From contig CM059587.1 in NCBI GenBank assembly GCA_030407085.1, positions 34,135,001 through 34,199,000 on the forward strand: DNA of 64,000 bases, given 5' to 3'. The notes beneath the pieces were generated by a model. That model did no database searches. It was given only the letters and a program-made list of their open reading frames with translations, and had not been told where the DNA came from. This document shows positions 23,089-64,000 of this stretch, piece after piece. The DNA is from Trichopria drosophilae. Its lineage: Eukaryota; Arthropoda; Insecta; Hymenoptera; Diapriidae. Position 1 is the stretch's first letter, and each line of letters opens with the position of its first letter. The position numbers and the translations under genes are program-made.

Positions 23089-24549
23089 CATTTTAAGTTA
23101 TTTAAAATTTCTGCAATATATGCCATTGTAATCAACCAAAGTATACAATTTGTTTTAAACTTTACTAATACTGACAAAGTTTACAATATTGAAAGTAGAG
23201 TCAGGAAATGAGAATCGTCAATTGAAAGACATGGTGCACGTTTAACGCCAGTTAAATCATTATAGCAATCTGCTGCGTAATCGCATTATTATTTGACATT
23301 CTGAAACGCAAGTAAGACTAACTTGAAGTTAAAACAGATATTATGTTACAATATAAGAAATATATAAACTGATATCAGTTTCTTAACCGAAACTTTATAA
23401 CGTGAAGTTCTCTGTTGTTATATGATTGTTAGGAAGCACTTCTATAACGTTAATAATCAACTAGGTTGTAAATGTACTATAATATGTTGTAACTGTAGAT
23501 AATGAGTGAAGCGTTTGAAATGTTATACAACTATATTTTAATAGTTGTGCAACAATACCGTTTGTCGTGTCCGGTTACAATAATTTTAATTCGATAATTT
23601 CGAAAATAACCTTGGATAAAACAATTTCGAAAATCGCAGTTTGATTTTGTATAAAGTAAATTTAAAAGTATGTAATTTTAGTTGTAATAAAATAGCGAAT
23701 ACTGTGTACAGTTATTTTCGACGGTAGTAAATCCACATTCGGACTTCTTCGAACAACTTCGTTTATAAACAAATGTGTTGTGAAAAGTCTACTTTACATG
23801 TGCTTGTACATTTCGTGGGTCGGTGTGCGTTGATGTATTATGAAGAGGAAACTACGATTTGTTAAGTTTGACTAATGTTACGTAAGATTACTGCCGAGTT
23901 GGTGGTATATTTAAAAACACAATGTTTAAATTGTCATACAAATTGTCATATTCGTGAATAATATACAAGAAAATATAATAACAGATGAAAATGTAATTAT
24001 GATTTTTCTATAATTTATTGCAGACGAACCTTTTTTACGTTTATTTTTTCTGGTACTATCGACATAGCGAAATAATAAAATCAGATATATCTTGAAAGGG
24101 TGTAAAGTTAGAGGACTCCAATTGGAGGTAAAGTTACTTCTTATATAGTTCTAAAACTTTAAAAAATAGTAGAAATCGGAGAGTAAGCGCCAGATCAATA
24201 GATGGTATTTTGCGTTTTCACCCATATATTAGCACTTTCAAAGTCGTATATTCAGAAACAAGTTTTTTAAACTCAAATAAGTAAATCAGTAAAATTAATA
24301 GAAAAACATTTATAATTTAAACAAAAATATTTGTTATTACTTTTTGAATTTCAGAAAATGATTTCTTTTAATAAGTATCTTTTAAAGATCTACAGGTGGT
24401 ATTTAATAATAAAAAGTGGCATTGAATATATATTTAGCACATCCGTCCGAATACTTCTAAAAACATATTTGATTGATTTAAGATTTGTTATCATGTATAT
24501 AGTTGTTTTGGGAAGTAGGATCCCTATGTGGACTGTATAGGGCGCAAGT
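23089..24549. other. Intergenic, no gene seen
   Basis: AT-rich throughout. The 69-codon frame at 24331 starts in a T-rich run, lacks splice or motif support, and is taken as chance. Confidence 0.45.
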
Positions 24550-24711
24550 GTAGTTAATAAATAGAGAGCACCCCTGGCCCCGGGAGAAGAGGGTATGATC
24601 GGTGAAGAAGCCGTCGGTGGCCTATTCCTAAGACAAAAGTTGGCTTATCCGGCAATCCGGGTAAGAAGTTCCACGCACATATAAACAAGTATTAGTTATT
24701 ACAAGTTAGCT

Positions 24712-24782
24712 GATGTTTCGTCCCGGGCCCGCTCTCGGACTCGTCAGTGGGGCTACGAGTAGCGGGCCCTGCCCCAGACATC
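24712..24782 (-). ncRNA. Type III hammerhead self-cleaving ribozyme
   Basis: Read from 24782 down on the minus strand. Stem III strand GATG (24782-24779) is followed by the UC of the cleavage site (24778-24777). Stem I is TGGGGC/GCCCCA (24776-24771 with 24753-24748). The core CTGACGA (24747-24741) matches CUGANGA. Stem II is GTCC/GGAC (24740-24737 with 24723-24720). GAAA follows (24719-24716), then CATC (24715-24712) closes stem III. All invariant core bases are present (C3, G5, A6, G8, A9, G12, A13, A14 and the A15.1-U16.1 pair). Loop 1 (17 nt) and loop 2 (13 nt) share a 9-nt complementarity, GGGCCCGCT with AGCGGGCCC, so a kissing interaction is likely. Stem III is open and only 4 bp, as in type III hammerheads of plant retrozymes, where dimers cleave best. 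Activity is inferred. Confidence 0.88.
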
Positions 24783-25011
24783 GCATGCAAATATGTAAAT
24801 ATATAAACGACATATGAAAATAAATGGAAATATTAATTAATATTCATTAACCGACTAATTGTTCCTGAACTCATTTTATATACTTACTACTCACTCACAG
24901 ACAAGTCCGAGCGGCGTCCCGGGGTTCACAATCAGTCGTCCGCACCTCCCGCAGTCTTGGCCCAAGCACTGTCACACGCTCGAGATCTGATCGCTTAGGA
25001 TCTTCTCGATA

Positions 25012-25047
25012 AACTGATTAGAAATGCCCTCAACGGGCATATTTATA
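25012..25047 (-). promoter_or_regulatory. TATA box plus initiator, minus strand
   Basis: TATAAA (25047-25042) and TCAGTT (25017-25012) have core-promoter spacing on the same strand as the hammerhead ribozyme. Both words are short, so the pair could be chance. The context of a GC-rich retroelement-like patch and a downstream ribozyme makes it more likely to be real. Confidence 0.4.
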
Positions 25048-25231
25048 TGTTCACGGAAATCTCCCATTGCGCCAAGACTTCGGGGAAATTCAACCAAACA
25101 CACAATTAGAAACAGCGACTCAGAGTCCTGTATACTCCCTTCTCATATGCATGGGTGTTCAACCAGTAACGGGAGGGCCCCCTCTCCTAACCAACTCCGA
25201 GCAACTCTTTGTTGGGATTATATCCCGAACA

Positions 25232-26535
25232 ATAGTAGATTTATCATTTCAATTAAAGTTAATACATTTACCCCGGATTTAAAAACTATGCTGTAAAATA
25301 ATCTATCAATATTATTCTTTGTCAGGATAAACATATTTTCGTTTGATTTTCATTTAAATTCGTTTTCTATCACCGTGTTTTTCACACAAGATGGGTTTTT
25401 GTCGATTAGTTCGCCACACTGTACATTCATAGTACTTATATAATCTTCATAACATTTATGATGGTCTTTTAGTTATTTCTTTATTTATTTTTTGTGTAAT
25501 TTAAAGTACATTATCTGTTATTCTAAAAGTTAATTGTTTCAAATAAATTATCTCTATTGCAATTTACACAAAACACAATTTTTTTATGATTATTTGTTCA
25601 AGAAGTCACGTTTGTATAACGTGCACAAAGAATAAAGGCTGCACCAAATCTGATCCGCATTATATACATTTTTTTCAATAGTTTTTGTATATTACATTCA
25701 TCTTATGAAATCTGGGCACGGTGGAAATTAATTGATATATTCTAGTTGTTGACATAACTTTTTGAACGTCACACGCTTATTGCATTATTCCTTACATAGT
25801 CGAGAACACACAATTTCGGTGTATGCTGAAATTGAAATTACAATTTCAATTAAAAAGCTGAAGCATCACGTTATTTCGACAATTTTTATTTTATTACAAA
25901 AAAATCCAGTTTCGACAGCATTCGCCTAAAAGGAGGCTACATTATTAAGTAAAAGCTTTTGGTCAGTGTAAGCGTTTTAATTTACTTACTGTAATACATC
26001 CCTAAATCTTGTTTTGAAAAAACTGTGCACGTCTTTACCGCAAGTTTTGAATGGACAAAATAGCAACATACTGTCCTGTAACGATATACGAAGAAAATTG
26101 GACATTTGTATTTCGTGTCAACGTAATTCTTCATTATTTCCACGTTGCAAGAATTTTATATAACCCAGCAAATAATTTTTTTAAATTAAAAAAATTAAAT
26201 TTTTCATGGAAAATAACCCTCTAACAAAATTGTGGTTTTAAATTAAAAAAACATTTTTAAATACTTTAATAACTTTGTTTTAACTTAAACAAATTTTTAC
26301 TTTATTTTAAAGAAAGCAGGACAAAAGTACCATTGTTTAAATTTAAATAAACCTTTTATCTGAGTGTATGACGTGATAATGAACCAAGAGAAAGTTCATC
26401 GATTTATTGCGTTTCCAAGGAACATCACGGATGCATCCCTCGTAGAAACAGCACGTTGTGTTGTTTGTTAAAACACATCGAGTTCACAGTTTCTTACGAA
26501 ACTGTCATCGTATTTTTAATGCGGAAAACGGAATT
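25232..26535. other. Intergenic and 5' region of the Tctex1 gene
   Basis: AT-rich with no recognisable gene. The last 150 bp (26380-26535) are less AT-rich and probably hold the promoter and 5' UTR of the following gene. No clear TATA box was identified. Confidence 0.4.
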
Positions 26536-39200: not shown

Positions 39201-41361
39201 TATCAGTTCATAGCTTTTCTCTCCAATTTCTATTCATTATTTTTTCAACTTTTTATTGCATTCTGAAGTTATAACTTTATATGAAAAAATTAAATATAAA
39301 TTGCCAGATTTAATCGTTACTGCTTGGGATCTATTTCATAGAAACAATCTGACAGTTGATTAATATTGTGATTAACAATATCAAAAACGCGAGTAAAATC
39401 AAGAAGATGCCACAGAGAAAGACAATTATGATCCTAATTAGTAAGAATATCTTCAAAAACTTTGAGACTGCAGTTTCATATTCGAAATTGCACCTACAAC
39501 CAACTTCGGAGAAAGATTGAAATTCCTCTAGCTTATAAAATCTCACTTTTGGCTAGAGAGGCATGTCCTCTATGCCATAATAAACACACAAACAAACAAA
39601 CTTATAGAGGTTTGCACGTGTAAACACGACGGGGTCGATAAATTTCTCTACCTCATAAAGGTTACTCTCTTATCCTATAATGGGGGAGGAAGGACCGAAG
39701 TTTTAATGAAATGATAGAATATTTTTATTATTTATATGAAATTAACTAGAACGATTCTGTACATATTTAAATTTCACTGACAATTCTACACATCACAAAA
39801 AATTATAAAATATACTCAGGCCAGTCAGATTAAGCAGAAATACATTTACCTTCCGTAAAGTTAATATTACGGATTAAATAATACCATGTAACTACTGAAT
39901 TACATGGATAAAACAGTTCTAAGACATATTGTTTAATATCTTCTCATATGTGTTTCGAAGTTTATTTTACTCATTTGCACATGAAAAATAAAATGCAGGG
40001 CGCAAAATCGAGTTCAAAGTGGAATTTTGGACGAAAAAGTGTTAAAAATGGAATTTTGCGCATGGTGTTAGGAAAAGACCTTTTTTGAAATTGTAAAATT
40101 TTGAAATGAAAGACAATAATAACCATTTCTGTCTTCTCAGTTGTTCACGTCCCTAAAAGCGTCCAAGTCAAAATATCGTTTCAGCATTTCGTTGAATTAT
40201 TTATGGAAAATTATTGGTAAATATTTTGTAATTCTATTTAATTAGAATATTACGAATGATTTTTCTACCCAGTATTGTTGTAGCAAAATCTACGCCAAAA
40301 TAGTGAAGACTTTACTTCATCGCAGTACATTTTACTGCAAAAGAGTACAATTTTTACTCCTCTCGAATGCGCTTCATTGAAATAATCGTAATATTTATTT
40401 AATGTTTTAAAATGTACTACCAGATAAGAGCGCAAATTATGAGTAAATTTGATATCATTTGGAAGTGTGAAATTTGTTTACATATTAGTCTATGCAGTTT
40501 CCTTCCCGATACATTTGAAAAGAGATATCACGTAACATGTTATCAACAATATGCATACGGAATTCTCGTTACTTAATACTTATGCACTACTCGAGTGATA
40601 ATTCAAAAAATAACTATTTTAAATAAAAAATAAACAGTTGCGTAAATCGTACATTTTTCAGCATTCTCCGAATGCAGGAATATATTCAAATACAACTTTA
40701 GTCACATTTCAAATTATTTATATTTTTCTAGACTAAAAAGGGCAAAAACAAAATGTTCTTATTGATTTCGCTGATTAAATTCAAATGTTATACGATTCTA
40801 TAATTTTTTTTAATTTTCTGTGAATGGCTGCGATATTCAAAACAAAAATCGCTACTTTTTGTCCGTAACTTTGAGACGATATTCGTGACTTTGAATGATA
40901 TTCTACTACATTTCGCATAATAAGATTTAATGAATTGAAAAACAAATATAACAAAAATCAGTTTTTTTAAAACATGGATAACTTTTTTATTTGAAAATTT
41001 ACAAAAATTTGTTATGCACCATTGCAAAGAGTGGCCAATAAAATATGACAATTATCTCAAACATAAAGTTAAGAAGTATTCATTTAGGCGTTAAAGCGTC
41101 AACAAAGTTTATAAAAATGGAATTAAAAATGGGTCTAAGGAAAAAATGCCGCACATTAATCCCACTTATTTATAACACTAAAATGTCTCTGAGTAAATAA
41201 AATATGATTGTATGTCAGTATAGTGCAGTTACTTTTAAAACGTTCAATAAGATTTTTAAACTAATGATCCATAAGATTTAACTCATATAAAATACCTTTC
41301 TTAAATTAGGAACATTTAGCAGACGTTTATAAAAGACCGATAAAAGGAACCGAGAAGCAAG

Positions 41362-42842
41362 ATGACCAGCGCTTTGAAAATCGATGGCTTGCATGACTTA
41401 TCCCTTACCGATATTACAGTATTCCATGAGCTTATAACAGGAGTAAAACTTCCGAACAGTTTTCACTCTCTTTCAGAAGATGAACAGAAACAATGGGTAC
41501 GTGAATTTGTCAAAACCCAATTTCCGAAATTGCGAGAGTCATTAAAGGATTTTGTCACTGGCATGTTTTATGCCGGTGACTGTGGACGTCCCACTGATCA
41601 ACTTCCAGATTGGCTCGATCTGGAAAAATATCAAAGAGGTCAAGCCGTGGTAAGAAGATACTTCTACGGAATTGCTCTTAACAATATTGTATCGACGGCA
41701 ATAGGCTTTACCTTTCTCGATGGACTAAAAAACGTCGTTGTGACAAAAAAGTCCAGTACTCCATATACGTCCTATAGGCGGTATTTAAAAACTATTAACA
41801 TGATGGTAAATTGGTATTACAATGATCCATTTACGAAAGGAACATCGGCATTCAAAGACATGGAATATACCCGCAGAATGCACTTAAACGTCAGGAAAAA
41901 AATGATGTTATCTTCCACGTCGGAGTTAAAAAATGCAGCCACTATAGAAAATACTTGGTCTCCGACATACAACGACTTGTTGAAGGATTTTCAGGAGTCT
42001 TGTGATGAACGAAGTATAGAGCAATGTCCGTTTGCAGCATTCACCAGGGACCAAATGCACAATAGAAAAGGAATGAGCCAAGCAGATATGTTAGTTGGTC
42101 AGTTTGCCTTCACGGGACTTGTCATCCTGTATCCAAGTGAGTTTGGGATGACTAATGTCACTGATCAGGAACTGGATGACTATTGTTACGTATGGAGATG
42201 TTTAGGATACCTCCTTGGTATTGATGACGAGTACGTAGATTTTAAAATGGATGGACGTTACTTTGAATGACATTAAATAGAATATTGTTTTAATTCAGGT
42301 TTAATTTTTGCCGAGGGACTTTACCAGAAATTCAGGAGCGAGCAACGGACTTTGTGGAGCATTGGTTGAAACCGAATCTACCCCACTTTATACCAGAATG
42401 GGAGCATATGATGCGATGCATGTTCGAAGGCATGCGTTATTATATGCCTTTACCATCTTTCGATACATTGATGCTGCATTGTTTTAAGATGCTAGATGTT
42501 CAAACACCCAGATTCGAAAAACAAATACCATTCTTCGAATGGGTTTGGTACAAAACTTTTATGTGAGTAGTTTTATGGAAAATCCTGATCTTTATATATG
42601 TCCTGTGCTGATGATATATGCTTATTATTAAATTTGTATACTGGATAATTAGTAGATTTTATTTTATTTGCAGGTTTATCTATGGCGTGTCAGGACGATT
42701 TTCAGGCGCTGCCTATATCCTCAACAAAATAATTCTTTCAATGATCAAATATGGCAGTAATTTCAGTCCGGATCAGCATAAGAAACTATTAAGAATGTCG
42801 ACTAACATCTGGAAATTACCAGCGCAAAAATTGCAATCGTGA
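41362..42842 (+). CDS. ER-bound oxygenase MpaB / rubber-oxygenase-like protein, paralog A
   Basis: Exons 41362-42230, 42299-42562 and 42674-42842 give 1302 nt and 433 aa. Both junctions are phase 2 (GA|G after GIDD; AT|G before FIYG) with short introns of 68 and 111 bp. The protein matches the insect branch of the DUF2236 / MpaB-rubber oxygenase catalytic domain. It has FYGIALNNIVS (101-111), KKSSTPYTSYRRYL (129-142), NDPFTKGTSAF (154-164), TRRMHLNVRKKM (170-181), the hydrophobic GQFAFTGLVILYP, YVWRCLGYLLGIDDEF, then FNFCRG and KPNLP. By analogy with Lcp-type b-heme oxygenases the RxxH histidine (H174) is the likely heme ligand. The insect substrate is unknown. The ATG precedes the family's usual N-terminus and no further upstream exon is needed. 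A same-strand paralog starts 7 kb downstream. Confidence 0.9.
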
Positions 42843-48915: not shown

Positions 48916-49840
48916 TAATGTTCACTTCACATCTCCACTTTTGTAAAGTAAATTATTATGTAATATATAATAATTTTTGTAATAATCTGAACTGCAATAA
49001 ATAAAGTGTTTAATTAGATAAATAAAACCTGTAAACTTAAATATTTATAACATTTTCTTTCTTATATTTCAAATCGCGTTTTTCCCGAGATGTTTCTGCA
49101 GAACCATTATAATCAGCATAGCAAATGCATACGAAAAATTAACATCGATTAATACATCGATTGTCGGAGTAGTGTTGAACTCTATTTAACTTTTGACATA
49201 CGCTTGACATGCGTTGTTTCAATCACAATTCTCAATTAATTTGATTTTCAGTTAAAAATCAACACGTGACTGTGAGACATTTCTCGCTATATGTAAGTGG
49301 GCAGCATCATACGAACTATAACCGCATCAGTCAGTGGAAAATCAGTTAGTTCTAGTCGACCTCATTCCACTTGTAGCATTCGCGTAAACGTTAGTAAAAT
49401 AGGGTGCCTCAAATAAATCGTAATGTGCTAATCCAATCTGGTACATATTTATACATATACATTATTTGCAAAATCGTTATACTTAATTATAAAATGAATC
49501 TGATGGTATAAAATGTAATTATGTAAGTAACAGGAGAGTGATTTGTTATCAATTATTCAATTAAACTGTTACAAAACAGATTCGAATGCATTTAATCATT
49601 CATACGAAAATGAAACATTTCTTAATATGGATGAAGATAAGCAACTCACTTTTCTGACACTAAATAAAATTTAAAAAGTGGTAACTTATTGGCCCATAAT
49701 TTTAGGGGAACGTTAATTGCGGACGAAGTACTTTTCATTAAGAAAATAAGAGAATAAAGTGATAAGAATAACGACAAATTGAATTGAAAACTGGGAAATA
49801 AAAAAAACAATAAAAATAATAGTAATAAAACCCTATCACA

Positions 49841-52184
49841 ATGAATAATACATCAACATATGAGTACGGCTTTTGCCCAAACATCTTCTCGGCATACTTC
49901 CAAAAAGTAATGAATAAGGAAGTCCCTGATAGTTTTCACAACCTATCAGCTTCTAAACAAAGGGCATGGATTTACGAATTGTTGAAAGAACAATACCCAG
50001 CTTCACCGGACTCAATTTTGAATCTACAACTTGGATTATTTTATAGTGGAGATTCGGGAATATCTGAAGACGCACGGCCGGAATGGATGGACGTTGCAAA
50101 ATACAGGAGAGGACAAGAAGTTGTTAAAAAATATTTATATGGAATCGCACTCAATAATATTGTCTCTACATCATTAAGCTTGACTCTAATCAACGGCACA
50201 GATTTGATGGTTGTTACGCGTAAATCCAGCACGCCGTACACTTCGTTCAAGCGGTATCTTAACACTATCAACATAATGAAAAATTGGTATTTTAACGATC
50301 CATTCACAAAAGGGACCTCAGCCTTCAATGAGATACAACTTGTGCGCAAATTACACATGAACGTTCGCAAGAAGATGATGGATTTAGGGAAAGACAGTTT
50401 AAAAATTCCAAACGCATGGTCTCCGGCTTACGAGGCAATGATCAAAGATTTTAAAGAATGTTGCCCAGTATTAAAAACTGGACAAAGCCCTTTCTCGGAA
50501 TACAATGTTGAAGATTTCGAAAGCAATGGTTTGAATCAGGCACATATGTCACTGGGACAATTCACATTTACCGGTTTAATTATTTTGTTTCCAAAGGAGT
50601 TTGGAATGCCTGATATTACTGACGAGGAATTAGAGGATTACATCTACGTATGGAGATGTCTGGGGTATCTACTTGGCATCGAAGATGAGTATGTTAATAA
50701 CGTTATTTTCATTTAGGTATTTATTTTATTTATTTGTTGAAAAATCAATAACAATCTCTCAATCTAATTGTATTCATAATATTTTAACACTTGTTTAATA
50801 GTACATTATGCTACTAGTTTTTACAATGGACTTTTTTAAATTCAATACACCGTCGAATTAAAGTGCAAATCGTTCCCTAACCTATTAGAAGCTAGACATG
50901 CCGAGGAGAAGGCATTGTGAAATTCGACGGGAAATCATGACAATTTTTATTTTTAAAATCTGTCTCTAGATTCGTAATCAGCGATACCAAAGCGGCTAAT
51001 ATATTTCAGCTAATTTTAAATGTATTTTTTAAACTCTCGTACTTAGCACACTAAAAACAGTGCGTAAAGTTCTTCGAACCATCAGTTCAGTGCTCAAGAA
51101 GTTCTCTCACGGAGTAAAAAAAATAGCATACGATACACGTGCAATGTATCTGTTTCACTTGTGCGCAAATCACCTACTTCTCCCACTTGTATCGTAATGT
51201 ACTATTCTCAAACTTTCCAGTAAGTCCACGGTGACATATACACATTGCGAGAGTGATTTTAACTTTTAAAACTTGGTTACTACTTTTTGAGTTGCAGGAG
51301 TGTCGCAAAGGTCTGACGACAACTTCCTTGTATTTTAACGCGCGAGTAGGAACAAGTCAGTTTTTAGACTTTTGAACTTTCAACTGTCAGAATTCAACCG
51401 CCTCTTTAGCCTTTCATAAAATAATATAATGGAGTACCTACAAATTGTAAGCGATAGATCTTTTCAAGTAAACCGCAGGAAATTTCAATAGGTCCAATTC
51501 GGCACCATAAAACTTGGAACTCTAAAAAACGAGAGTAGAATACATTCATAGAGTTTTTTGTGACAGTAAAGACCATTATAGGCTTTGATTCTTTTCGTTT
51601 TGGTCTTGCTGATTACGATTCTTATATCAGAAGTTTTAAATTGATATTATTCATTAAAATATATTATCCATATACATTTTGATGTAGATTCAACTTTTGC
51701 CGTGGCAATTTACAAGAGGTCCAACAAAGGACAAGAGACTGTTTGGAGATCCTTTTGAAACCAAATTTACCACATATAATTCAAGAATGGGAACACATCA
51801 TGCGATGCATGTTCGAAGGCATGCGTTTTTACTTACCATTACCTACTTTTGATTTAATGATGTTGTATTGCTTCAAACTGTTAGATGTTAATATGCCCAG
51901 ATTTGAAAAACAGATAAAGTTTGGAGATTGGCTGTGGTACAAAAGCTTCATGTAAGTTCAATGTCAACTAACTCATGTAATTCAATATATAAACAGTTTG
52001 AATACATTCAAAATATATGCTTATATTTAGGTTCGTTTTGTTCATGGCTGGTAGAGTGCCTATAACTAGGAATGTTCTAAACAAAGCACTTCTCTGGCTA
52101 TTGGATAACGGAAGTAATTTCAATGCAAAAAGACATCAAGAACTCAAGCAATATTCTGATACGATTTGGCGATTTCAAACCTGA
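49841..52184 (+). CDS. ER-bound oxygenase MpaB / rubber-oxygenase-like protein, paralog B
   Basis: Exons 49841-50688, 51688-51951 and 52031-52184 give 1266 nt and 421 aa. The splice phases and the 264-nt middle exon are the same as in paralog A, but intron 1 is 999 bp against 68 bp. Conserved blocks are LYGIALNNIVS (99-109), RKSSTPYTSFKRYL (127-140), NDPFTKGTSAF (152-162), VRKLHMNVRKKM (168-179, candidate heme ligand H172), GQFTFTGLIILFPKEFGMPD, YVWRCLGYLLGIEDEF, FNFCRG, and EWEHIMRCMFEGMRFYLPLP in exon 2. N- and C-termini diverge from A (MNNTSTYEYG against MTSALKIDGL). This is a tandem duplication with both copies intact. Substrate unknown; a role in hydrophobic or terpenoid lipid oxidation would be speculation. 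Confidence 0.9.
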
Positions 52185-59244: not shown

Positions 59245-62157
59245 TTAACGATAATCTTGTAAAAATGTAATTCTCGCCTGGCTTTTGAAGCAACCAAAAG
59301 AAAGCTGTTTAAGTGCAGGGCAGTTAGGGCAATTACCAAGTTTAATAAGTCGATTTACAGGAGAGTTAAGACCATATTCAGTTCTGTGGACCTGTGGCAA
59401 AAAGAGTCTATTGTTTCGAAAAGAATACGGATTTTCCCAGTGTATAAGGCAAGAATTTAGTTCTGGACAAAAAATTAAACCATTTACAATTTTATAAAGT
59501 AGACAAACATCAGAATAAATTCTATGTGACTCTAATGTGCTTAAGCTAATTTTAGTGGCAACTTCAGTATAGTCATGCGATCTAGCAGGATTCTGTAATT
59601 TTAATTTATAGGAAATAAATGATAAAAACTTATGCTGCACTCTTTCCAACTTTCTTCTGTGAACGTCAAATAATGGTGACCAAACAGAAGAACCGTACAT
59701 TAAAATAGATTTAACCAGGGAATTATATAAGATTATTATTGCCGAAGTATTCACAAATTCTTGACATTGCCTCTTAAGAAAACCTAAATTTTTAAGCGCT
59801 TTTTTAGTTATATAATCAATGTGTTCGATGAATGTCAGTTTATTATCGATGAGTACTCCCAGGTCACTGATAACTGGTACTTTTTCCAGTATTGCACCAT
59901 TAATAGTATAAGTGAAAGAAAACTGAGAACGCGTTCTCGATACGCTTAATACTTTACATTTTTTCGTGTTTAGTGCCATGGAATTAGTTTCACACCATCG
60001 AAGTAGTGAATCTAAATCTTGTTGTAAGAGTACAGCACCATCACCTAATGGATCTACTACTCTAAAAAATTTGCAATCATCAGCGAATAAAAGAAACTGA
60101 GAGTGCTGAAATACTGTATCAATATCGTTAATAAAAATCAAAAACAATAGTGGACCTAGATGAGACCCTTGCGGGACTCCTGATAATACATCGATCTGGC
60201 GTGACTGGAAGTTCTTATATTTAACACACTGACTTCTGTTAGTTAAATAGTCAAGTAGCCATTTACAGAGTGATACACTAATACCGGCGTTGTATAATTT
60301 TGAGATTAATCTAATCTTTGGTACTCTGTCAAAGGCCTTGGAAATGTCAGTATAAATAACATCCACCTGCTGACCCTTCTCAAGCGCATCAGTTAATATG
60401 GATGTAAATACTAATAGATTAGTAGTGGTTGACTTTGTGTTAATAAAGCCATGCTGTTCAGAGATGATTTTTGAAACCAAGAATGAATTTATATTGTCAA
60501 CGACTAGACTTTCAAATAATTTTGGTACAGTACTAATGATTGAAACTGGTCGATAATTGGTAACATCAGTTTTATCGCCAGATTTATAAATTGGAGTAAT
60601 AAAACTTGTCTTCCATGACACTGGAAAGGTCATTTTATTTAGAGAAAGGTTGAAAAGTTTTGTTAAAGGACCACTTAAATATTCGGCGCAGTTACGTAAA
60701 AATAATGCAGGTATACCATCAGGTCCAACACCTTTCCGAGTATCAAGGGAAACAAGCTTATTCCGGACATCAGCAAGATTTATTTGCGATATGTCAAATA
60801 AAGGACCAGGTTGATTTCCACTCCTAAAGGTCTCTAAGAGAGGGTGGATGTCTTCCCTCAAATGGACATAAGAGTTCTGAAAGTGTTCTGCTAAAAGATT
60901 TACAATACCGTTGCCCTCTGTACTAGTTGTATTTTCTAAATGCATCATATTAGGAAGACAACCGCTCTCTTTTTTAGAGTTCACATAATTCCAGAAAGCT
61001 TTTATATTATCACAGATGGAGTGTTCAAGTTTATAAACATACTTTTTGTATAGATATCTAGCTAAACTCTTACATGCAGACCTAAAGGTCTTAAATTCAT
61101 TATAATCATTCTGGCAATTTGATTGCCTATATCGACGGTACATTCTCTGTTTTAATTTAACAAGAATACGCAGTTTTCCGTTAAACCAACAAGGGAATGA
61201 ATTTGATTTAATACTGACTCTGGGTATAGTTTTAGCAATAACAGTATGTAAATTATCATAAAAATAATCAACCAATTCATCAATATGATTAGTGGAATCT
61301 ATATAATTCCAATTAATTTTAGATAGTTCAGAATTAACTTTATCATAATCGGCTAGGTTAAACGCAAACGACTTAAGATTAAATTTAAGATTAGTGTCCT
61401 TAACATGACCATGAAAAATATCTATCGATAACGCAGGATGATATTTATCAATGGGTACGATTGGATCTATCACAGTATTAATGTTAACCTTCTCTGCATT
61501 AGAAAAAACCAAATCTAATATATTATTTGAACAGTTAGTAACACTATTATATTGGGATAGATTCATGAAACCGAATGATTGCATTAGAACAGAAGCTGCT
61601 TCATTGATGGATCGATGCATGCTGCCGTAGTGATTAATTGATACTCCGAGTTCATCATTAGACCACTGAATATTTGGTAAATTGTAATCACCAACTATAA
61701 ACACATTAGCCGAGGGGTTCATTTGAACAATATCTTCGAGAGCTTCGCAGTGTACATTGTAGATTTCAATATCCGATTGGGGTGGAATGTATACAGCTCC
61801 AAAAATAAATTTTGTATTGTGAATCCATACCGACACAAATAACTGTTCTAGTTTTATAGGACATGCTATAGAGGCACTGTTCAATTTTTTTGAAACTGCA
61901 ATGAGCACACCACCACCACGAGAACAATCACTGGTTTCAAAACATCTGTCTTGCCTGTAGATATTGAATCCATGCATGCCCAGTTCAACGTCATTTATAC
62001 CATCCTTAAGCCAGGTTTCAGTTAATATGATAATATCATATTTCACACAGTTCAATGGTATATTGCGAAGTGAATCGAATTTAGTATTTAAGCCTCTGAC
62101 ATTTTGATAGTAAACCTTTAACACTGGATCATTAGCACTGTTATTAATTAGTTTTTT
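59245..62157 (-). CDS. LINE ORF2: APE endonuclease and reverse transcriptase
   Basis: The frame is open from just before 62157 down to 59245. Counting from a GTG at 62124 it gives 959 residues. The endonuclease (1-235) has QNVRG (N8), LTETW (E36), RGGGVLIAV (69-77), VGDYNLPNIQW (D146, N148), DLVF (D204) and KYHPALS (H229; the usual SDH Asp is Tyr here). The reverse transcriptase (about 460-760) has KGVGPDGIP, YRPVSII, TDISKAFD (D593), SGVPQGSHLGPLLF and FADD (680-683, D682/D683 intact). LGVLIDNKLTFIEHI lies in the thumb. Organisation and motifs place it in the CR1/Jockey group. It carries out target-primed reverse transcription on cut chromosomal DNA. No AUG precedes the endonuclease. The first Met (residue 50) would delete its N-terminus, so a -1 frameshift from ORF1 or a mutated start is implied. 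Confidence 0.92.
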   Translation of the reverse strand, partial: KKLINNSANDPVLKVYYQNVRGLNTKFDSLRNIPLNCVKYDIIILTETWLKDGINDVELGMHGFNIYRQDRCFETSDCSRGGGVLIAVSKKLNSASIACPIKLEQLFVSVWIHNTKFIFGAVYIPPQSDIEIYNVHCEALEDIVQMNPSANVFIVGDYNLPNIQWSNDELGVSINHYGSMHRSINEAASVLMQSFGFMNLSQYNSVTNCSNNILDLVFSNAEKVNINTVIDPIVPIDKYHPALSIDIFHGHVKDTNLKFNLKSFAFNLADYDKVNSELSKINWNYIDSTNHIDELVDYFYDNLHTVIAKTIPRVSIKSNSFPCWFNGKLRILVKLKQRMYRRYRQSNCQNDYNEFKTFRSACKSLARYLYKKYVYKLEHSICDNIKAFWNYVNSKKESGCLPNMMHLENTTSTEGNGIVNLLAEHFQNSYVHLREDIHPLLETFRSGNQPGPLFDISQINLADVRNKLVSLDTRKGVGPDGIPALFLRNCAEYLSGPLTKLFNLSLNKMTFPVSWKTSFITPIYKSGDKTDVTNYRPVSIISTVPKLFESLVVDNINSFLVSKIISEQHGFINTKSTTTNLLVFTSILTDALEKGQQVDVIYTDISKAFDRVPKIRLISKLYNAGISVSLCKWLLDYLTNRSQCVKYKNFQSRQIDVLSGVPQGSHLGPLLFLIFINDIDTVFQHSQFLLFADDCKFFRVVDPLGDGAVLLQQDLDSLLRWCETNSMALNTKKCKVLSVSRTRSQFSFTYTINGAILEKVPVISDLGVLIDNKLTFIEHIDYITKKALKNLGFLKRQCQEFVNTSAIIILYNSLVKSILMYGSSVWSPLFDVHRRKLERVQHKFLSFISYKLKLQNPARSHDYTEVATKISLSTLESHRIYSDVCLLYKIVNGLIFCPELNSCLIHWENPYSFRNNRLFLPQVHRTEYGLNSPVNRLIKLGNCPNCPALKQLSFGCFKSQARITFLQDYR
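62148..62157 (-). promoter_or_regulatory. Candidate -1 ribosomal frameshift site A_AAA_AAC
   Basis: The heptamer occupies 62157-62151 with codon boundaries A AAA AAC in the ORF1 frame, followed at once by the UAA stop (62150-62148). A -1 slip places CTA ATT AAT in the A site, which is the ORF2 frame. That frame stays open through residues KLINNSANDPVLKVYYQ into the endonuclease. No strong downstream pseudoknot was identified by eye. Confidence 0.6.
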
Positions 62158-62930
62158 GGAATGCGATTACCAATAGAAATAATTTTGGGAGTCCCCTTGA
62201 CATACTTAATGGTATATTTTGGATCATCAGACGTGTTTAAGGTGGAAAGTTTATTCCTTAGCTCCTTCAAATAATTACGCTGCTGAACGGTTTGGTCGGA
62301 GAATATGAGCTCACGACCATTATATTTGGCTTTATTTCTGAGAATCGTTAGTACAATATCCTTATCCTTAAAAATGACTTTTATAGGTCTTGAGTGTTGT
62401 TCGGAAGATTTTCCTATTCTTATGACCATTGAGATGTCGAATCTATCAGAAATAATTTGAGATAAAATTCTAGTAATTCTAGATAAGTCGCTGGCAATTC
62501 TTTTATCTTTGTCTTTTTCTTTCGATTCGGGTACATTTAGAAAAATTAAATTGTATGCTCTCTGATGTCTCTCATTGTATTCAAGTATGCACTCCTCGAT
62601 CATAGTTGTTGAATCAATTGACTTAGACGACGAGACTTCTTTAAGTGAATCAACAGAACTTTTTAAGTGTTTTATTTCATTCTTCACTGAGGATAGTTCA
62701 TTTAGTACTTTAGGAAGAATGGAGAAACCTTTCTCACATTCATCACAGAAAAATTTCAGCTTACGTGCAGTTTTTAATTCAAGACATCGTTGTTCGGTTG
62801 ATGAGATTTTACAACATTCGTAGTGACTACATCTCCCACAGCTGTCACAAGTAGCATATTTATTTGATCGTGGTAATTCGTTGTCGCATATCCAACATAA
62901 CGGAATGCAAGTTTCATCATCCGTGCTCAT
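62148..62930 (-). CDS. LINE ORF1: PHD-like zinc finger nucleic-acid-binding protein
   Basis: 260 aa from the first ATG at 62930 (MSTDDETC). The frame is open for 35 further codons upstream but without an ATG. The N-terminus has a PHD-like zinc cluster: CWIC, CDSCGRC, SHYECC, then FFCDEC (about residues 12-65). A Leu/Lys-rich coiled coil of about 35 residues follows (LPKVLNELSSVKNEIKHLK), then an L1-ORF1-like RRM/C-terminal region: NLIFLNVPESK, MVIRIGKS, RPIKVIFKDKD, TVQQRNYLKELR. PHD plus coiled coil plus RRM-like is typical of ORF1 in CR1-group LINEs. It should bind the element's RNA. The gene ends CCA AAA AAC TAA, a canonical slippery site abutting the stop. Confidence 0.88.
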   Translation of the reverse strand: MSTDDETCIPLCWICDNELPRSNKYATCDSCGRCSHYECCKISSTEQRCLELKTARKLKFFCDECEKGFSILPKVLNELSSVKNEIKHLKSSVDSLKEVSSSKSIDSTTMIEECILEYNERHQRAYNLIFLNVPESKEKDKDKRIASDLSRITRILSQIISDRFDISMVIRIGKSSEQHSRPIKVIFKDKDIVLTILRNKAKYNGRELIFSDQTVQQRNYLKELRNKLSTLNTSDDPKYTIKYVKGTPKIISIGNRIPKN

Positions 62931-64000
62931 AATTACAATATTACTCTGGAATATAACCACAAATTTTGCCACGTGTTTCAGTAAGTAATGTTGACTGAAA
63001 TATCTCTCTCGATTCGATGAAGTCTCACTAATCAAACTATCAAACCACTTATTTTATTTACAAAACTAATTTTTTTGGGCACAAAAACTTGTAAAAAGTG
63101 ATAGTAAAGTAAAAAAATATAGTAAAGTAAATTTCCGAAAGTTTATTCTTAAAGCGCCATCTGTGAAATATACTATTTTTCAAATAACTTTAGTTGTATT
63201 GATGCTACTACTTTAGTTCATGTTTGTAAAAACTACTCTGCCCTCAGTATAAAATATTTTGTCATATATTTTCATTGTTATAAATAACGCAAATATAGTT
63301 TTGCAACAACTATGGTAGATCGGTACGAATACTGATACTGATACCCCTACATCTCGACCGAGCTACTTGGACTTCAGATTTCCCTCCGACTGAGGCATTC
63401 AACCCCTGCTGGCTCAATTTTTTGGGGTTCATCAGCCAGTGGTTCGTGTGCTCATTCTGCGTCTGGTGTTGCCGTTTCGCTACTATGGGTTTGGTCTGCT
63501 GGTATTCTCATTCATGAGTCGAGGTAAATCTCCTCTACATCCACCGCTATCCTCTCACTTCATCCTCATCTCCTTTCCAGACGACCGTATTCACTTCCCA
63601 TTGTCGGTTTAGGTCCAATTGACAATATCGTCGCGGGTCATCGATCATTCGAACGAGAAGCTTTTAAAAGCCTATCCAATTTTCTCTCCGCGCAAACATC
63701 AAATAAGTTACTTTTCTACCCTTCGATTACGTAATCACTTATTGCTGGAAGCTAAACTGTACAAATGACATCAGGTGGAAAACTCATCAGGAGCTGGGAG
63801 CTGAAAGTGATAACCATAGTTTTTTTAATGTCATTTTCTGTGATGTAACTGATAAAAAGATGAGAGTAATCCACAATATACAACTCTATTACAAAATTTT
63901 AGTTTAATCGTACCGAATCTTTGATGGCCTCGGTCGTCTATGCCAATGATATAGTATCTGCCAGAGGTATCGATCTCTGGCAAACTAATTGCTTCTCTTA
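62931..64000. other. LINE 5' region and flank, no gene seen
   Basis: The first few hundred bases are probably LINE 5' UTR. From 63330 to 63660 the sequence is GC-richer, with several frames open for 50-60 codons on both strands, but none shows a recognisable motif. The window ends without a further exon. Confidence 0.4.

Follow-up and report, generated by a model that had tools for sequence, protein, structure and literature searches.

Type III hammerhead ribozymes in the LTRs of a non-autonomous retrotransposon from the hymenopteran Trichopria drosophilae

Hammerheads in plant and animal retroelements

The LTR retrozymes of plants, as described by Cervera et al. (2016, PMC4918200), carry a hammerhead ribozyme, of type III in plants (PMC7229834), in each of their long terminal repeats (LTRs), together with a target-site duplication (TSD), a primer site, a polypurine tract (PPT) and a non-coding interior. 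The same account gives them many solo LTRs, families that are alike mainly in the ribozyme and the LTR edges, and a helper presumed to come from LTR elements. The animal non-LTR retrozymes reported by Cervera and de la Pena (2020, PMC7229834) are also hammerhead-bearing, non-autonomous retroelements, with insects named among their hosts, but their hammerheads are of type I and lie in short tandem repeats of 150-450 bp, for which LTR, primer site and PPT are described as absent. HDV-like RNAs and the genomes of termites and dipterans are reported to contain hammerheads of type III (PMC7936874); these combine Watson-Crick pairing of loops 1 and 2 over 4 nt with a longer helix I and an extra hairpin, are isolated motifs in termites, and are presented in that report with no LTR described. 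A search for this atypical architecture is reported there to have returned none in hymenopterans, hemipterans or a cockroach. More generally, a loop pseudoknot is thought to be used by about 40% of hammerheads (PMC3088659), and insects are mentioned as hosts of elements with type III hammerheads in a review (PMC7761336) that refers to an earlier paper and to work in preparation. Within the open-access literature, a scope outside which most subscription papers fall, we found no description of a type III hammerhead in insect LTRs.

The locus described here lies in a 64,000-nucleotide stretch of the Trichopria drosophilae genome (contig CM059587.1, positions 34,135,001 to 34,199,000; hereafter the window). 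The element to which it belongs is a non-autonomous LTR retrotransposon with a hammerhead in each LTR, and is best read as an insect counterpart of the plant LTR retrozymes, about seven times longer, that probably passes through a circle. It shares with the plant elements all of the features listed above, and differs from their description in PMC4918200 in its insect host, in LTRs of 728 or 632 bp rather than about 300-400, in cleavage sites that are ~5 kb rather than ~0.7 kb apart, in an apparent tRNA-Tyr rather than tRNA-Met primer, and in its long Watson-Crick kissing helix; the circles demonstrated for the plant elements are inferred here from sequence. The GC content of the LTR is 47%, compared with >55% for the plant retrozyme unit (PMC7229834). 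Since a full length of 5.7 kb, with sites 4,971 bp apart, and a TSD of 5 bp depart from the plant retrozyme size (circle about 600-800 nt) and 4-bp TSD, we do not count the element as a member of the plant-type LTR retrozymes. Unlike the animal non-LTR retrozymes, it combines a type III hammerhead with LTRs, a primer site and a PPT. Cassandra, Helenus and Ajax (PMC10886601) are likewise non-autonomous LTR elements built on a small-RNA-related module, which is described as 5S rRNA-like in Cassandra or as another small-RNA-like sequence, and which is a ribozyme here.

An arrangement known so far mainly from plants is found here in an animal. A first-pass annotation of the window had contrasted type III hammerheads in plant LTRs with mostly type I or II in metazoan retroelements; this stands insofar as the animal retrozymes are of type I and lack LTRs, but type III hammerheads with loop pseudoknots were already on record for the genomes of termites and dipterans (PMC7936874). 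The published division, with type I and no LTR in animal elements and type III in LTRs in plant elements, does not hold for a type III hammerhead in true insect LTRs, and it becomes a question whether the LTR retrozymes of plants and animals have a common origin, arose twice or were transferred. The longer element also offers a test of whether a circle can template LTR retrotransposition, for which its young copies (two LTR pairs less than 1% diverged) are well suited.

The hammerhead and its LTR

Read on the minus strand from 24784 to 24710, the motif begins with GCGATGTC up to the expected cleavage site, continues as TGGGGC-AGGGCCCGCTACTCGTA-GCCCCA-CTGACGA, and ends with GTCC-GAGAGCGGGCCCG-GGAC-GAAA-CATCAG (Table 1). 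The invariant core CUGANGA, GAAA and UH, three helices and an open end at stem III are all present, in agreement with the type III architecture and the stems of 4, 6 and 4 bp in the first-pass annotation; stem III consists of GAUG/CAUC plus a U16.1-A15.1 pair (4+1 bp). The kissing loops that had been proposed are likewise there: 9 contiguous nt of loop 1 are complementary to loop 2, and CTC/GAG beyond one bulged A extends the helix to 12 pairs. When loop 2 was shuffled 2000 times, pairing of the loops over at least 9 nt arose in 2 draws. As a nested structure, the isolated 75-mer has its minimum energy in an alternative hairpin through the kissing strands rather than in the hammerhead (-35.0 vs -17.8 kcal/mol), because the kissing helix dominates and is incompatible with the stems in a nested drawing.

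Table 1. Positions of the ribozyme, its parts and the surrounding LTR features in the window
Feature	Position	Strand	Basis and remarks
Type III hammerhead ribozyme	24710..24784	minus	Rfam match, core inspection; cleavage expected after 24777 (GUC)
Stem III 5' strand, GATGT	24778..24782	minus	pairs with 24712-24716; sequence, pair counts
Stem I 5' strand, TGGGGC, 6 bp	24771..24776	minus	pairs with 24748-24753; sequence, pair counts
Loop 1 kissing strand, GGGCCCGCT	24761..24769	minus	extension 24757-24759
Catalytic core CUGANGA (as CTGACGA)	24741..24747	minus	model match, core count
Stem II 5' strand, GTCC, 4 bp	24737..24740	minus	pairs with 24720-24723
Loop 2 kissing strand, AGCGGGCCC	24725..24733	minus	extension 24734-24736
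Core GAAA	24716..24719	minus	final A doubles as stem III pairing base
Solo LTR, family A, 728 bp, ends TGTTCGGGA...TTCCCAAAACA	24504..25231	minus	edges common to copies
TSD, LTR 5' side (ACTAT on minus strand)	25232..25236		copy alignment
TSD, LTR 3' side (ACTAT on minus strand)	24499..24503		copy alignment
TATAAAA box, candidate LTR promoter	24874..24880	minus	~95 nt upstream of the hammerhead; inferred from position only
Possible anti-ribozyme arm, 28 nt (hypothesis)	24896..24923	minus	79% complementary to hammerhead 3' half; upstream of TATA box

In an Rfam scan of the window, the type III model RF00008 (Hammerhead_3) was the top of six matches (E up to 5), as anticipated in the first-pass annotation, with 39.5 bits and an E-value of 4.7e-5, though the score falls short of the gathering score of 48.5 bits. 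A genome scan with RF00008 placed none of the 14 matches listed over this cut-off, the best reaching 44.5 bits (68 of 124,751 candidates scored). The gathering cut-off is a curation threshold and not a structural feature; at the level of sequence, the E-value and the covariation presented below speak for a hammerhead. In addition, the exact core pattern CTGANGAGTCC-N6..14-GGACGAAACAT occurs at 342 sites in the 936-Mb host genome and at none for a reversed control, which, together with the RF00008 match, rules out a chance motif. The core pattern gave no hit in viral contigs (viral_contigs) in one search and three loci in another, and none in genome_contigs. We conclude that this is a real ribozyme motif in real LTRs, which is probably functional.

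Support for LTRs comes from the copies of the repeat, which the first-pass annotation had delimited as 24550-25231, short of the 728 bp given by the edges common to the copies. This family A LTR is present at 40 places or more in the host genome (936 Mb in 509 contigs), counting the one in the window; identity is 90-99% at the others (40 of 631 candidates scored, giving 41 match rows; the rows L003 and L008 were removed as the same as L010 and L009). A direct TSD of 4-5 bp flanks 23 of the 40 listed. The PPT TGTGGGGGAGTA (TGTGGGGAAGTA in L042) stands directly before six and a primer site directly after five, with one letter altered in L017 and a deletion in L026; L012 pairs with L011 over the TSD TTTAC, and five have no LTR hallmark. 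The TSDs, PPT, primer site and paired copies identify these repeats as LTRs and the repeat in the window as a solo LTR, presumably left by recombination, and bear out the earlier suggestion of a retrozyme-like or LTR-linked family. The solo LTR has a GC content of 46.8% in surroundings of about 28-37%. The PPT-LTR junction occurs at 43 exact genome sites, with none for the control, and the hammerhead core is intact in 37 of the 40 copies, which were found by LTR similarity. Two of the copies with near-identical flanks, L007 and L028, may be one insertion held twice.

Paired copies, for which a genome-wide search had been proposed, were also found, with LTRs ~5 kb apart. A full-length family A element at C1:139725448-139731146 (L043; 5.7 kb, TSD AGGTG) has two LTRs in the same orientation, 4,971 bp apart and differing at 6 of 728 sites; both have GUA instead of GUC at the cleavage site. 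The L012/L011 pair, on C3, has LTRs that differ at 15 of 728 sites plus three gap columns. The full-length elements have two direct LTRs with TG..CA ends, and the hammerhead is on the sense strand of each LTR, as set by the primer site and PPT, in family C (below) too. Over 18 nt, CCA included, the family A primer site matches a tRNA gene in the same genome at its 3' end; ARAGORN labels this gene '???', and its anticodon is GTA by inspection, from which we read the likely primer as tRNA-Tyr. A genome pattern search for a tRNA with GGTTCGAN gave no sites, and a looser tRNA pattern gave 15. No recognised genes were found in the L043 interior, where ten open stretches compared with Pfam gave nothing near a cut-off (one at E 0.17, far below its cut-off); Pfam was applied to this interior alone, and the other interiors were judged by ORF length only.

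LTR families and conservation of the ribozyme

The spacing of the core sites was analysed for 98 sites on C1 (of 100 listed, out of 342), which sort by loop and core letters into 48 of a group C, 32 that are A-like and 18 of a ~590-bp repeat family or other. Same-strand neighbours less than 13 kb apart form seven pairs among the 98 sites, all 4,971-6,596 bp apart. Cleavage as a tandem dimer, as first suggested for this hammerhead, does not fit these data, as the closest same-strand A/C neighbours among the C1 sites listed are ~5 kb apart and type III hammerheads are reported to cleave efficiently as monomers (PMC6155905).

Group C corresponds to a second LTR family. A full-length family C element in L084 has LTRs of 632 bp with six differing sites, an interior of 4,399 bp and flanking ACCATG. 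Its PPT is common to A and C; its primer site is unlike that of A and presumably corresponds to tRNA-Phe. In a BLASTN comparison of the window LTR with L084, the two hammerheads were the sole match, and in a global alignment of the A and C LTRs the hammerhead is 84% identical, compared with 43% for the remainder and 60% for the best other 75-nt window. The family C loops are complementary over 12 contiguous nt (GGGTCCGCTCAC / GTGAGCGGACCC). When the upstream part of the C LTR alone was used as query, at least 40 places were found (40 of 262 candidates scored), 12 of them on C1, and the exact hammerhead pattern was at the expected place in 11 of these 12 listed LTRs, found without the hammerhead in the query. 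At five places (C1:73499208, C1:133350300, C2:92815375, C2:121178788 and C4:34648061), a family-C-type PPT/LTR junction is found either within an A-like hammerhead pair or 1.6-4 kb ahead of a family-A-type junction, which suggests composite elements.

Stem conservation in homologous copies, which the first-pass annotation had named among the tests of its reading, was then assessed in the LTR families and the ~590-bp family together, 51 distinct hammerheads in all. Both the stems and the loop-loop helix are kept with changes on both sides: 93.1% of cells are paired, compared with at most 54.9% in slid controls, and two-sided changes occur in 13 of 27 pairs, seven of them in the 12-pair kissing helix, whose pairs were placed after the alignment had been viewed. 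With the ~590-bp family left out, the LTR families alone give 94.6% paired cells and a two-sided change in 5 of 27 pairs; on the measure of further pair types, 106 of 500 shuffles, which treat the sequences as unrelated, were as high. In this LTR-only alignment, 14 of 39 rows lack one and the same kissing pair, at which the series CAC/GTG, CTC/GTG, CTC/GAG looks like a compensatory change with its intermediate. The per-locus survey of hammerheads and loops covered the loci other than L043-L053, L068, L041, L042, L063, L070 and one of the two in L072.

Young A copies give a further measure of constraint. Their 11 core positions show 0.45% divergence, compared with 4.5% at matched LTR positions (P 0.005) and, among those in the slow half, 2.7% (P 0.042), while the 75-nt hammerhead as a whole has hardly any excess conservation (2.4% vs 2.6% in the 150 nt upstream). 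Alignment A2 and model R1 were built from 20 chosen sequences, some of them from the hammerhead search, which biases conservation in old copies; the argument therefore rests on the A-versus-C comparison, the core divergence in young copies and the C LTRs found without the hammerhead. At the level of the predicted motif, these comparisons show a ribozyme conserved across LTR families while other LTR sequence has mostly diverged.

Related hammerheads were also seen in other repeats. The ~590-bp family, collected from L054 (L068-L079), is non-LTR-like and consists of units arranged head-to-tail along with inverted partial copies (103 match rows; 40 of 629 candidates scored), for example L071:1383-2593 and two hammerheads 591 bp apart in L079. 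Its related type III hammerhead has loops pairing in the same register, and 11 of 12 loci have the core. One copy has, at a distance of about 1 kb, a Penelope-type reverse transcriptase fragment, recognised by eye, and a weak GIY-YIG match (E 0.0037, below cut-off; L080:2908-3995 and L071:3-374), and in L083:162-3556 a Tc1/mariner-like transposase piece, also identified by eye, lies between inverted ends formed by the family. The L067 family is old, with copies ~80% identical (40 of 496 candidates scored), and a hammerhead, decayed, was seen in L067 only. The sequence GTGAGTGAGTAGTA, which resembles a 5' splice site, is found upstream of the hammerhead in L067 and family A, and in a shorter form in C (roughly 45-115 nt).

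Possible roles of the ribozyme

How could a hammerhead in each LTR serve the element? We think it reasonably likely that the ribozyme is a working part of these non-autonomous LTRs, and that double self-cleavage, a circle and copying by a helper follow from it. Transcription from the 5' LTR, with the TATA box just upstream of the hammerhead, into the 3' LTR would yield an RNA with a hammerhead near both ends; promoter and transcript start site are guesses here. Self-cleavage at both sites, with the kissing helix (9-12 bp) keeping stems I and II in the active position, would release a ~5-kb unit RNA with 5'-OH and cyclic-phosphate ends, from which a host RNA ligase could make a circle that includes the equivalent of a single LTR. 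Copying around the circle might then start from a tRNA-Tyr primer, with an autonomous LTR element supplying the reverse transcriptase for this step and the integrase for insertion of the product. Among four BEL/Pao loci considered as helper, none has this PPT-LTR edge; the nearest, GGGTGGTGGTATGTTTCGG in L090, bears a partial likeness (these loci stop short of the 5' end).

The complementary arm upstream of the hammerhead, strong in family C, may lock the ribozyme after the circle has formed. Among 60 base-shuffled controls for each locus, none gave as good a duplex in L084 and L061 (family C) or in L062 (older A-like), and as good a duplex was obtained in five for the window, nine for L058, seven for L059 and 13 for L067. 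In both A and C the arm lies upstream of TATA-like boxes, so that a transcript would lack it at the 5' end and contain it in the 3' LTR, and a circle would contain it too. In plant retrozyme circles, the hammerhead is described as conformationally blocked (PMC4918200). The arm was also considered as a second hammerhead of opposite polarity, and is only a degenerate look-alike.

More tentatively, and with greater doubt than confidence, we propose that an exchangeable ribozyme cassette with a 9-12 bp kissing helix occupies several LTR families and at least one non-LTR-like repeat, and that ~5-kb circles, far above known retrozyme circles, jump-free reverse transcription and an arm-locked hammerhead together mark an animal branch of LTR retrozymes.

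The hammerhead could instead trim transcript ends or silence read-through, with the element taking the usual linear LTR route and making no circle. Its position ~95 nt downstream of the TATA box would suit such a role, as would the lack of AATAAA in LTR A (family C has two, upstream of its hammerhead), and the element has the PPT, primer site and TSD of ordinary LTR retrotransposition. Against this, a cut in R or U5 would remove the terminal repeat needed for linear strand transfer, and plant elements of the same layout are reported to make circles (PMC4918200). We consider trimming rather unlikely.

A second alternative is that the hammerhead was active in an ancestral element and is now a functionless passenger of the LTR. 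The window copy is a solo LTR, stem I has decayed in L067, a member of the old family, and in young copies the ribozyme is little more conserved than the LTR upstream of it. A passenger would be hard to reconcile with the high identity of the A and C hammerheads in otherwise diverged LTRs, with two-sided changes in kissing pairs, and with LTR pairs less than 1% diverged in two of three elements compared, and we judge it improbable.

Derivation from an integrated viroid-like or HDV-like circular RNA, such as the termite and toad agents with type III hammerheads, can draw on the loop pseudoknots of the type III hammerheads reported from HDV-like RNAs, dipterans and termites (PMC7936874). It is highly improbable, however, given that the motif is part of true LTRs accompanied by a TSD, a primer site and a PPT, that its opposite-polarity partner is only a degenerate 28-nt look-alike, and that the longer helix I and extra hairpin described for those hammerheads are absent here.

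Other features of the window lie apart from the LTR. On the minus strand, 59245-63053 holds a non-LTR retrotransposon (labelled Jockey-like) in which a 301-aa frame lies upstream of an endonuclease-reverse transcriptase frame of 973 aa. Two similar frames of 295-308 aa lie on the plus strand at 41344-42270 and 49829-50716; the first has named homologues in the wasps Belonocnema, Leptopilina and Polistes, with 34-44% identity.
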